Source: Candidatus Hydrogenedentes bacterium CG07_land_8_20_14_0_80_42_17 (lineage in GTDB: Bacteria; UBA8481). From it: a stretch of 11,553 bases of DNA. The notes under the pieces were generated by a model. That model ran no database searches and was not told the DNA's origin. It saw only the letters and a program-made list of their open reading frames with translations. The stretch covers positions 1 to 11,553 of the forward strand of contig PEWQ01000202.1 of assembly GCA_002780065.1 (NCBI GenBank), written 5' to 3'. The translations under genes were made by a program, and so were the position numbers. Positions 2,643 through 11,553 of the stretch are shown here, piece after piece. Position 1 is the stretch's first letter. Each line of letters starts with the position of its first letter.

Positions 2643-5192
2643 ATGAATCCGAATAACTGGACGGAAAAAGTTCAAGCGATAATTCAAAACGCGTTTGAAT
2701 ATGCTATAAAGTTTTCAAACTCTGAAATTGAGCCTCTGCATGTCGGACTTTCATTACTAGAATCTGAAGGATCGATATGCCCAAAAATTCTGGAGGCTAG
2801 CGAGGAAGCGCCAAAAAAAATACGCGAAAAAATTGCGATAGATATTCAACGCCTGCCAAAAGTAGAAGGAAGCGGATTAAGAAATCCGTCATTGTCGCGA
2901 GCGACTTCGAGCAGAATCCAGAAAGCGGACGATGAACGCAAGAAGATGGGAGACGATTATCTAAGCGTCGAACATTTAACAATTGCATTCAGTGATGTAT
3001 TCGGAATAGATGAAGATAGAATCAGGTCTGCAGTTAAGAGTTACAGAGGAAACAAACGTGTAGATTCTAAAACTCCCGAGATGAAGTATGAAGCTTTGGA
3101 AAAATACGGCCGCGATCTTGTTGCGCTTGCTCGGGAAGGAAAGCTGGATCCTGTTATCGGAAGGGAATCCGAACAGAGACGTGTGATCAGAATTCTTGCA
3201 AGAAGAACAAAAAACAATCCGGTTCTTGTTGGACCTCCGGGCACGGGCAAGACCGCAGTAGTTGAGGGAATTGCTCAGCGAATATATCGCGGCGACGTTC
3301 CTGAAGCGTTGAAGGATAAAGTAGTTTTTTCGCTGGATATGGGAGCTCTGATTGCCGGAGCAAAATATCGCGGAGAATTCGAAGAGCGGCTGAAGGCAGT
3401 GCTCGACGAAATAAAAGATTCGAACGGCAGAATAATTCTTTTTATTGACGAATTGCATTTAATCGTCGGAGCGGGAAAAACAGAAGGCGCGATGGATGCC
3501 GGCAATCTTCTGAAGCCTTTGCTTGCGCGCGGCGAACTGCACTGCATCGGAGCGACCACTTACGACGAATACAGACAGAACATCGAAAAAGATGTGGCGC
3601 TAGAACGCAGGTTTCAACCGGTGCCGATTGATCCTCCGGACATAGAATCCACTATCAGCATTTTAAGAGGATTAAAGGAACGTTATGAATTATATCATGG
3701 AGTAAAAATTCTCGACTCAGCGCTGGTTGCCGCGGCAAAACTTTCAGACAGATACATAGCCGACAGATTTTTGCCTGACAAAGCGATAGATTTAATCGAT
3801 GAAGCCGCGGCCGCAGTTCGAACGGAGATAGAAAGTTTTCCGGCAGAACTCGACGATCTAAACAGAAAAATAATGCAACGTGAAATCGAAGAGACTGCGC
3901 TCAGTTCAGAAAAAGATGCGGAATCGAAAAACCGTCTCTCTGCATTGCATAAGGAAATATCCGAGTTTAAAGAGAAAGCGTCAGGTTTGAAAGCTCAGTG
4001 GGAATCAGAGAAAAAAGATATAAGCAAATTGAAAGAGCTTAAGCAAAAACTCGACGACGCGCGAAGAGAGATGGAATCTGCAGAGCGCGCTTATGACCTT
4101 CAGAAAGCAGCAGAGCTGAAACACGGAACCATTCCTCAGCTCGAAAAGAAATTGGAAGAACTTTATGCCGGTAAAAGTTCGAAGGTGTTATTGAAAGAGG
4201 AAGTCACGTCCGACGAGATTGCAGAAGTCATCAGCAAATGGTCTGGGATACCTATCGAGAAGCTTGTGGAATCCGATCGTGAAAAATTATTGCGGCTCGA
4301 TTCGACTCTGCACAAAAGAATAATCGGACAAGACGAAGCTGTCCAAAAAGTTGCGGATGCTATAATTCGTTCCAGAGCAGGATTAAAAGATTCGAGAAGA
4401 CCTGTGGGAACATTTCTTTTTCTCGGTCCGACAGGAGTCGGCAAGACAGAGCTTGCTAAGACTTTAGCGGCAACGCTCTTTGATAGTGAAGACCGGATTA
4501 TCAGAATAGATATGAGCGAGTACATGGAGAAGCATTCAGTCTCAAGGCTTATCGGTGCTCCGCCGGGATACGTAGGTTATGACGAAGGCGGGCAATTAAC
4601 CGAAGCAGTGAGAAGAAAACCGTATTCTGTGATTCTCTGCGACGAGATTGAAAAAGCTCATCCTGATGTATTCAACATTTTTCTGCAGATACTCGATGAC
4701 GGAAGGCTGACTGATAATCAGGGGCGAACAGTTAATTTCAAAAACACGATAATTATTATGACATCAAATCTTGGAACCGAAATCATTACGGAAAAACTCG
4801 GTGTCGGCGGAGAAATAACTGAAGGCATACGAAGAACAATTTTTGAAGAGCTCAAAAAAAGATTCAAACCGGAATTTTTAAATCGGCTTGACGACATTGT
4901 TATCTTCAAACCTTTGACGATAAATGAAGTTGAGAAGATAGTCGAACTGCTTATCGAAGAGCTGAAGAAAAGGGCTCGAGATCGAGAGATAGAGCTTACA
5001 GTTACCAGCCGTGCGATAAAGTATATTGCGGAAAAAGGTTTCGAACCTGCATTCGGCGCCAGGCCTCTGCGAAGGTATATTGAACGCGAAGTTGAAATGC
5101 GATTGGCGAGAGCATTGATAAGCGGAGAAATTCATGCAGGAGAAAAAATCATGATCGATTGGGACAGCGAGTGGAAGATAGCTGATGAATGA
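2643..5192 (+). CDS. clpB: ATP-dependent protein disaggregase ClpB
   Basis: A hexameric AAA+ unfoldase that, with DnaK, threads aggregated proteins through its pore after stress. Its 849 residues are near the family norm (about 855-880). In order: N-terminal Clp domain (about 1-145); first AAA+ module with Walker A G-P-P-G-T-G-K-T (197-204), pore loop K-Y-R-G (241-244) and Walker B ending I-D-E (268-270); a long charged coiled-coil middle domain (about 405-525); second AAA+ module with Walker A G-P-T-G-V-G-K-T (595-602), pore loop G-Y-V-G-Y-D (642-647), Walker B ending C-D-E (666-668) and sensor 2 G-A-R-P-L-R-R (805-811). The full middle domain and lack of a ClpP-binding I/L-G-F loop favour ClpB over ClpC or ClpA. 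Walker A1 has P-P-G-T where ClpB usually has E-P-G-V. No CIRCE element is visible upstream; the candidate promoter is sigma-54-like. Confidence 0.96.
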
Positions 5193-9236: not shown

Positions 9237-9725
9237 GTGAAAGAAGAGAAGGCAAAAATACGAATTAAAGTTAAAACTTTAATTGCAGGAGTGAATCGTA
9301 TTGAAGCTTCTAAAAAGATAACTCAAAAACTTAAAGAATTTATGCCGAATAAAGGCTTTGTTTTGGGGTTTGAGCCATTAAGTGACGAACCTGATATTTC
9401 AACTCTAATTGATAAACTCAAGGAAGAAAAAAGATTGGTGCTCGTATGCGGAGAAAGAAGCAATCCTATATTGGTTTCTGATGTAAAAGATATTTCACTC
9501 GCTCTGATTCCGGGCAGAGCATTCAACAAAAAAGGTGTGAGGCTTGGTAGAGGCGGAGGAACATTCGATCGTATTCTATCAAAAATTAAGTGTTTAAAAA
9601 TAGGCGTAGCTTTCAACGTTCAAATACTGGATGAACTTCCTAAAGAATCTCACGATCAGCCGGTCGATATTATAGTCACCGAAAAAGAAATAATTAAATG
9701 CAATATTGATTTTAGTGGAAAGTAA
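9237..9725 (+). CDS. fthC: 5-formyltetrahydrofolate cyclo-ligase, compact form
   Basis: Converts 5-formyltetrahydrofolate to 5,10-methenyltetrahydrofolate with ATP, returning a dead-end folate to one-carbon metabolism. Evidence: the C-terminal signature P-G-R-A-F-N-x-x-G-x-R-L-G-R-G-G-G-T-F-D-R (about 92-112), a basic N-terminal segment, E-P-D-I-S-T-L in place of the usual E-v-D-T, I-G-V-A-F-N-x-Q and the ending L-P-x-E-x-H-D-x-x-V-D-x-I-V-T-E. At 162 residues it is shorter than the usual 180-200. The missing part is mid-protein, between the V-L-V-C strand and the signature; compact members of similar size are known in mycoplasmas. It starts with GTG, in the same frame as secA and two codons after its TAA. 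The nearest Shine-Dalgarno-like GGAG (9222-9225) is 11 bases away, so re-initiation after secA is plausible. Confidence 0.9.
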   Translation: MKEEKAKIRIKVKTLIAGVNRIEASKKITQKLKEFMPNKGFVLGFEPLSDEPDISTLIDKLKEEKRLVLVCGERSNPILVSDVKDISLALIPGRAFNKKGVRLGRGGGTFDRILSKIKCLKIGVAFNVQILDELPKESHDQPVDIIVTEKEIIKCNIDFSGK

Positions 9726-9733
9726 AACTCTAC

Positions 9734-9754
9734 AAATCACGCATCACTAATCAC
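9734..9754. repeat. 7-base-period repeat at the convergent gene ends
   Basis: Three heptads, AAATCAC (9734-9740), GCATCAC (9741-9747) and TAATCAC (9748-9754), share the core ATCAC. The repeat covers most of the 11-base gap between fthC and the minus-strand gene and extends into that gene, encoding its last residues and stop. GCATCAC is also the first unit of the repeat after clpB, and CTTTTAAC follows in both. No terminator hairpin is visible between these convergent genes. Confidence 0.55.
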
Positions 9755-11553
9755 TTTTAACAGGTCAGCTATCTCGGCAAGAATAAGTTGACTCACCTTT
9801 CTGGTCAAATGTCCGTACTTCAATAACCTGATCAAAGTTATCAGCAAGGCAATGCTGTAAAGAACAGAAAGTTCACCGGAAGAAAGTCCGAATACAGTCA
9901 TGGAAACTCGGCGCAATTCAGCGCTTACTCTAACTCTCTTCATAAGAGAATATCGAACATCCAGTTTTTCAATTTCGGAAGGATCGAAATTATTCGCAAG
10001 AGTGTAATCCAACCATCGCAATTCCTTTTCATCTGCAGAGCCATCTTGAAGCGTTTCGTATCGCAAATCAACCTCAAGCCGCGCCGCATCAAGAAGCTGA
10101 AACCCTACAGAAGTTTTGTAAAAATCAATAAGGCAAATCATACCTCGATTATCCAAAATAATATTTCTAGCATTCAAATCGCCATGATGAATTCCCTCTG
10201 GAATCGAAATTTTTTCCGATGACTTGTTTGATATAAGATTTTTCATTAAAAATAGCGGGTTGTTCGTTTCGATTCCTAGATCAGGAAGTTGAATTATCTC
10301 TTCTTCAATATTGGAATTCAACTGCATTCCTTCCAATCTGTCTTTTAACAAAGAGGTAAATCTCGAAAGTCCCTTGAAGAGATAAATTGCTCTACGGTGC
10401 GAATTTCTAGTATGCCAGTCGGAGAGAACTCTCAAGAATAAATTATCGATAATGTTTACAATACTCTCTATGCTGTTTTCAGAATTTTGATAAACCTGCC
10501 GGAGTGAAAATGGAATTTCATTCGGCTCTGAAGCCCACGAGAGCCTTAGTGCGGCAGTTTTCAATCCGAATGCATAGCCGATCATTCTTGGATGATAATT
10601 TGGATGGAGAATTCCTGAAACGAATGTCTCCATCTTCTCTTTCTCTATTGCGATTCTGAATTTTCTGCCGACCTTTACAAGGCATGACTGCTCAACAGCT
10701 TCTTTGCGTTCAGGGTTTGCCCGCAAAACTCTGTCTCCGGAAAGCCCCGCGTTCTCCTCATCAATTTCGCAGAACTCTGCGCTTTGATATCTGTTAAAAA
10801 GTTCTCTCAAAAGTAAAGTTTCCTCTTCGCTGAACGGCACACCAGAAAGTTTCGGATGTTTCAATCTTGAACCGAGTATTGAATAAAATTCACGTTTCGT
10901 TTTATTTTCAGATCCAAGAAAAATTTCTGGAGAGATTGATCTAAATAGAGGCCCGTAAACTGTATGATTGATAAACTCATGCCGCAGTTTTGCAATTTCA
11001 TTCGCGAAGAGATCAGTATCTCCGCCTTTAATAAAATCATCCAGCAGTTGAAAAAAAATAAGGCGTGAGTGCTGAACTTTATTCATTTTTAAACGGTCAA
11101 CCAATTTCGAAAGATTTTCGGAATCTCCGAGAAGCGCCAGCCTTAATGCCTCTAGATAATCCGCTCGGACAATTGGACTGTCTGCAGATAATTTGTATAA
11201 CTTTTTTATTTCTCTGTCCGCCTCGATAAATCTGGAGGAAAAAAGGAGAATTCTCGCTAGAGTAAATCGAGTTGTAAATTGTTTATCATCCTGATCGAGT
11301 CTGGCTTTCAGAAGAGTTTCTGCCTCGGCATACATTCCGTCTTCGATGAGCATATCGGCAATCGCCGCCGCATCGGTAGAGGCTTGTTTCAGGGAAAGAG
11401 CTTTTAGTCGGGCGTCAAGGGAACTAGGTCGATCACCGAGTTCATAAAGAATTCGCGATTTAACAAAGAGCGCCGGTGCATCGTTCGGATGCGATTCGAG
11501 ATATTCCTCGATTATCTTCAAGGCACCTCTGGCATTGCCGCCATAAAGCCGAG
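9737..11553 (-). CDS. TPR-repeat protein with APH-like phosphotransferase domain, N-terminus cut by window edge
   Basis: The frame is open at the right edge, so the true start lies outside; at least 604 residues are visible. A TTG at 11521 could be mistaken for a start, but ten upstream codons continue a TPR helix (L-Y-G-G-N-A-R-G-A). Counting from that TTG, residues up to about 140 hold four or five TPR-like helix pairs; 140-225 is helical and unassigned. From about 235 the sequence resembles an aminoglycoside-phosphotransferase/choline-kinase-like fold: a G-L-S-G-D-R-V-L loop (259-266), C-L-V-K with likely ATP-binding K283, E293/E295, catalytic H-G-D-L-N-A-R-N (446-453) and metal-binding I-D-F (465-467), then L-D-A-A-R-L-E. 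All core catalytic residues look intact. From memory it resembles the kinase-like domain named ternary-complex-associated domain 9 in bacterial conflict systems; this is unverified. Substrate unknown. It converges on fthC with an 11-base gap. Confidence 0.8.
   Translation of the reverse strand, partial: RLYGGNARGALKIIEEYLESHPNDAPALFVKSRILYELGDRPSSLDARLKALSLKQASTDAAAIADMLIEDGMYAEAETLLKARLDQDDKQFTTRFTLARILLFSSRFIEADREIKKLYKLSADSPIVRADYLEALRLALLGDSENLSKLVDRLKMNKVQHSRLIFFQLLDDFIKGGDTDLFANEIAKLRHEFINHTVYGPLFRSISPEIFLGSENKTKREFYSILGSRLKHPKLSGVPFSEEETLLLRELFNRYQSAEFCEIDEENAGLSGDRVLRANPERKEAVEQSCLVKVGRKFRIAIEKEKMETFVSGILHPNYHPRMIGYAFGLKTAALRLSWASEPNEIPFSLRQVYQNSENSIESIVNIIDNLFLRVLSDWHTRNSHRRAIYLFKGLSRFTSLLKDRLEGMQLNSNIEEEIIQLPDLGIETNNPLFLMKNLISNKSSEKISIPEGIHHGDLNARNIILDNRGMICLIDFYKTSVGFQLLDAARLEVDLRYETLQDGSADEKELRWLDYTLANNFDPSEIEKLDVRYSLMKRVRVSAELRRVSMTVFGLSSGELSVLYSIALLITLIRLLKYGHLTRKVSQLILAEIADLLKVISDA

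Follow-up and report, generated by a model that had tools for sequence, protein, structure and literature searches.

The stretch of DNA analysed here (the window, 11,553 nucleotides) is one entire contig (C110) of the genome of Candidatus Hydrogenedentes bacterium CG07_land_8_20_14_0_80_42_17 (G000; 2.39 Mb in 207 contigs, 87% complete). At its right-hand end is a gene (9737..11551, minus strand) encoding TPR repeats joined to a C-terminal TCAD9 domain. Its 604 codons form one unbroken frame from 11551 to 9740, the stop codon occupies 9739-9737, and the 5' end is cut off where contig and window both end. The preliminary description placed the N-terminus of the protein beyond the window; this is so, yet only about 18 residues (or codons) are missing from this copy, as judged by alignment with the ortholog described below.

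The TPR-TCAD9 gene converges on an opposite-strand run of genes that were described beforehand, correctly, as housekeeping: those for a cysE-like hexapeptide transferase, a DtxR/MntR-like repressor, a Clp ATPase, a CCA-adding/polyA polymerase-like protein, SecA and 5-formyltetrahydrofolate cyclo-ligase. Only the C-terminal part of the Pfam model (114-186 of 186) was matched by the cyclo-ligase (9237-9725), whose N-terminal half is divergent or shortened.

A conserved fusion at two loci

An ortholog with 46% identity over its whole length is encoded by Candidatus Hydrogenedentota bacterium isolate J006 (G001, contig RFFU01000117.1), which belongs to the same order and was the sole other genome of that order among the first 60 genomes searched. 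With a TTG as the assumed start codon, in a four-base overlap with the ispG stop, this ortholog has 623 amino acids, and its Pfam scores are 75 bits for TCAD9, 42.7 for APH and 28.4 for TPR_19. Since the independently assembled J006 genome encodes the same full-length protein, the fusion is no assembly artefact. The joining of TPRs to a kinase-like domain had been proposed from the window alone; with Pfam TPR and TCAD9 matches above cut-off and a full-length ortholog of the same build, the two sequences show it to be real and conserved. The gene is present in a single copy per genome, and the two known orthologs come from two families of one order. A scan of genome contigs with the single window sequence gave no match, and one with a two-row alignment (window and J006) recovered only the known ortholog.

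In J006 rseP and ispG precede the gene, and an aldehyde dehydrogenase gene converges on it from the other side. In the genome of the window rseP-ispG is on another contig (C153), where dapF and two ABC transporter genes come next. An operon link to ispG, as seen in J006, was rejected because ispG lies elsewhere in the window's genome, with dapF after it. Gene order is not shared by the two genomes and so gives no functional clue, and no substrate or partner gene was linked to TPR-TCAD9 at either locus. The J006 contig also carries, some 5 kb away from TPR-TCAD9 and next to the gene for RNase III, a gene for a STAS-domain protein (L010:9583-10200), and two tandem, near-identical type IV prepilin-like genes (L010:5899-7621; leader GFTL[MI]EMLTVVAIIG).

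Domains and catalytic motifs

The N-terminal part (10970..11551, minus strand; residues 1 to ~194) consists of TPR-like helical hairpins, matching Pfam TPR_19 (25.9 bits, cut-off 25) and TPR_14 (24.1 bits, cut-off 23.5) and predicted with pLDDT ~45-80. TPRs are usually protein-binding. A short linker joins these hairpins to the kinase-like domain (9740..10846, minus strand; residues ~236-604), which scores 70.8 bits against TCAD9 (PF19974; cut-off 40, E 1.6e-19) in two stretches, covering 11-145 and 293-348 of the 429 profile positions; in the J006 ortholog the match reaches position 423. Against APH (PF01636) the same domain scores 28 bits (cut-off 23.2), far below TCAD9. By these profile scores the C-terminal region belongs to TCAD9 itself and is more than APH-like. 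A resemblance to TCAD9 had been noted in the preliminary description, and TCAD9 proved to be the family, at 70.8 bits in the window and 75 in the ortholog. The protein was not assigned to any characterised enzyme family.

Twelve TCAD9 domains (those of the window and J006 and ten from unrelated genomes) were aligned to compare motifs, all given here on the minus strand. The equivalent of the nucleotide-binding loop, GLSGDRV (10727..10747, residues 269-275), keeps G269 in 10 of the 12 domains and S271 in 11. The conserved beta3 lysine, K293 in CLVKV (10673..10675), and E303 (10643..10645), the candidate helix-C glutamate, are each found in 11 of 12. In the catalytic loop HGDLNARN (10163..10186, residues 456-463), H456, G457, D458 (the putative base) and N463 (the putative metal ligand) are invariant, as are I475, D476 and F477 of the metal-binding IDF motif (10121..10129, residues 475-477) and D488 (10088..10090), a family-specific aspartate in a D..[RK]LE motif. 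The catalytic residues had been called intact from the window alone, and the motifs named then do fall in register with those of the 11 other domains.

While the window domain thus has the G.SG, K, E, HGDLN..N, IDF and D..[RK]LE motifs of TCAD9, it and its ortholog form a divergent subfamily, with 17-23% identity to TCAD9 domains of other phyla, and the window protein differs further in its N-terminal TPRs and in a genome without ternary-system genes. A tree of 13 TCAD9 domains grouped the pair (100/100) without placing it firmly among the rest. Within the pair, identity is highest in the TPR part (63%, residues 1-123) and the catalytic-loop stretch (62%) and only 23% in the middle part. With these as its best-conserved regions, the alignment points to constraint on binding as well as on catalysis.

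The likeness to the APH superfamily lies in the HGDxxxxN and IDF catalytic core, which takes the domain above the Pfam cut-off. In contrast, the APH score is much the weaker, there is no NCBIfam equivalog above cut-off, and the window protein has the extra C-terminal helical segment of TCAD9 and the fused TPRs. When a profile of 11 TCAD9 domains was compared with PDB sequences, the best solved-structure matches were to the protein kinases RIO2 (E 1.4e-5) and GCN2 (1.4e-4), followed by an aminoglycoside phosphotransferase (1.7e-4). The likeness to RIO2 and GCN2 is confined to the catalytic core, at E ~1e-5 to 1e-4, and TCAD9 is not a member of either kinase family. AlphaFold gave low-confidence models (mean pLDDT 43.7 from the two-row alignment and 35.0 for the kinase region alone), which are uninformative, the alignment being too shallow.

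Partners of TCAD9 and the question of conflict systems

TCAD9 is uncommon. It scored above the family cut-off in six of 290 relatives, in 8/251 genomes of the phylum of G061, 2/17 of that of G175 and 2/44 of that of G357. Fusions to STAS were found in four genomes (G311, G175, G270 and G079) and to receiver domains in three (G573, L062; G469, L064; G605, L065). A further TCAD9 protein (G463) has an N-terminus that looks receiver-like by eye, with no Pfam match at E 0.001. One genome each has a fusion to Clp_N (G623, L058:904-2862), to NB-ARC (G607), to the SpoIIE PP2C phosphatase (G659, L073:1-1977) and to isochorismatase plus a dual-specificity phosphatase (G357). The partner domains therefore include two protein phosphatases and several phospho-signalling parts. 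Among the TCAD9 proteins opened, the TPR form occurs only in the order of the window.

Fusion to STAS, receiver, phosphatase, Clp_N and NB-ARC domains points to TCAD9 as a putative mobile signalling-kinase module. The window protein shares with the STAS and SpoIIE forms (G311, G175, G270, G079 and G659) a C-terminal kinase-like domain with a regulatory N-terminal domain, which in theirs is STAS or a PP2C phosphatase and in the window's is TPRs. It is possible that the SpoIIE, STAS and isochorismatase plus dual-specificity phosphatase forms (L073, L015, L016, L018, L019 and L017) are one-chain partner-switching or kinase-phosphatase modules. The middle domain of the STAS-TCAD9 proteins was suspected to be a degenerate PP2C, which was unsupported by hhalign. 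In the receiver fusions TCAD9 would serve as a two-component output domain.

In G357 a ClpB-like AAA ATPase gene (L045:4975-9249) lies directly upstream of the TCAD9 gene. Together with the Clp_N fusion in G623, this neighbour makes a link between TCAD9 and Clp machines possible. The same two cases raised a possible link of TPR-TCAD9 with the window's own Clp ATPase (2643-5192); these two genes lie on opposite strands, with 4.5 kb between them.

No TCAD9 protein was found in the viral contigs searched, the single match being a short phage kinase-like protein, and the plasmids searched gave only one Streptomyces phosphotransferase (E 6e-3). On one viral contig (L071:3162-5665) a short kinase-like protein with HGDLNANN is encoded directly before a chaperonin (GroEL-like) gene.

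The name TCAD9 ties the family to vWA-MoxR-VMAP ternary systems (figure legend, PMC10910872). The ternary system itself is described in an eLife paper of 2020 (PMC7159879), in the main text of which the term TCAD does not appear. The link to NTP-dependent conflict systems drawn in the preliminary description was not borne out. VMAP-C (PF20028), which marks vWA-MoxR systems, was absent from the window's genome (87% complete) and from J006 (94%) and present in the control genome G061; no vWA, MoxR or NACHT gene lies near TPR-TCAD9 at either locus (for the window, on its assembled side); and PADLOC gave no credible match, only one of 10.7 bits, in the ortholog. That the protein is part of an anti-phage or conflict system, of the vWA-MoxR-VMAP ternary or NACHT/STAND type, has some appeal from the family name, the NB-ARC fusion in G607, the G061 TCAD9 gene, which directly precedes an ATPase-like ORF in a genome with VMAP-C, and the rare active APH kinases noted as effector domains (PMC7159879). 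We nevertheless consider it improbable, given the lack of VMAP-C in both genomes, the housekeeping neighbours, the PADLOC result, the single copy per genome and conservation at 46% identity across two families of one order, which is not patchy. A conflict-system role for the TPR-TCAD9 protein is therefore unlikely, although the right side of the window gene lies beyond the assembly.

Catalysis and probable role

Both orthologs retain all catalytic and metal-binding residues. Most Ser/Thr kinase domains of vWA-associated systems are reported to have lost theirs (PMC7159879), which would favour a scaffold of pseudokinase type, without catalysis, whose role is limited to sensing ATP or binding partners. 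Retention of these residues in both orthologs and across the family makes such a scaffold very improbable here.

Rather, the explanation with the best support is that the protein would be a soluble, probably catalytically active TCAD9-family kinase, docked through its TPRs, that phosphorylates a protein partner, a proposal that we regard as evenly poised. It accords with PF19974 scores above cut-off in both orthologs, with signature residues invariant or near-invariant across 12 divergent domains and with the PDB matches and best-conserved regions given above. ATP-Mg would be bound through G269-V275, K293, E303, N463 and D476, D458 would act as the catalytic base, and the TPRs would dock a protein partner. 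Within the cell, the TCAD9 domain would then pass on a signal by phosphorylating this partner (Ser/Thr), and free antibiotics or metabolites would not be its substrates; a protein substrate is favoured because TCAD9 is elsewhere fused to phosphatase, STAS and receiver domains.

As read from the sequences, the intact motifs fit a protein kinase and a small-molecule kinase alike, and APH ranks second among the Pfam families. The main alternative is a metabolic phosphotransferase for a small molecule (APH-, homoserine- or choline-kinase-like), with TPRs for oligomerisation or localisation. Scores above the APH cut-off (28 bits in the window, 42.7 in the ortholog), weak matches to models of 3-deoxy-D-manno-octulosonic acid kinase, APH(3') and homoserine kinase, and the four-base overlap with ispG in the rseP-ispG run of J006 are consistent with such an enzyme. 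However, TCAD9 outscores APH by far, its relatives are fused to signalling domains, linkage to ispG is absent in the window's genome (dapF comes after ispG there) and TPRs usually bind protein, so that we hold this alternative to be a serious but minority prospect.

TCAD9 is a Pfam model with almost no literature: among the papers searched two use the term, and the one clearly concerned with this domain (PMC10910872) names it only in a figure legend. Our literature search, mostly without subscription papers, found no report of the TPR-TCAD9 pairing or of TCAD9 signalling fusions and no biochemistry on any TCAD9 protein. The pairing looks undescribed, and its parts are all of known kinds. The TPR-docked kinase proposed here would be convenient to assay since it is compact and appears soluble, without a membrane or sensor part. 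More tentatively, rather than being chiefly a conflict-system domain, TCAD9 could represent bacterial protein kinases of a widespread but uncharacterised family that plugs into STAS/SpoIIE partner-switching, receiver two-component, Clp_N and TPR proteins, with the window protein as its TPR-docked form. Should TCAD9 domains prove to be protein kinases connected with phosphatase, STAS and receiver domains, they would constitute an overlooked branch of bacterial signalling.
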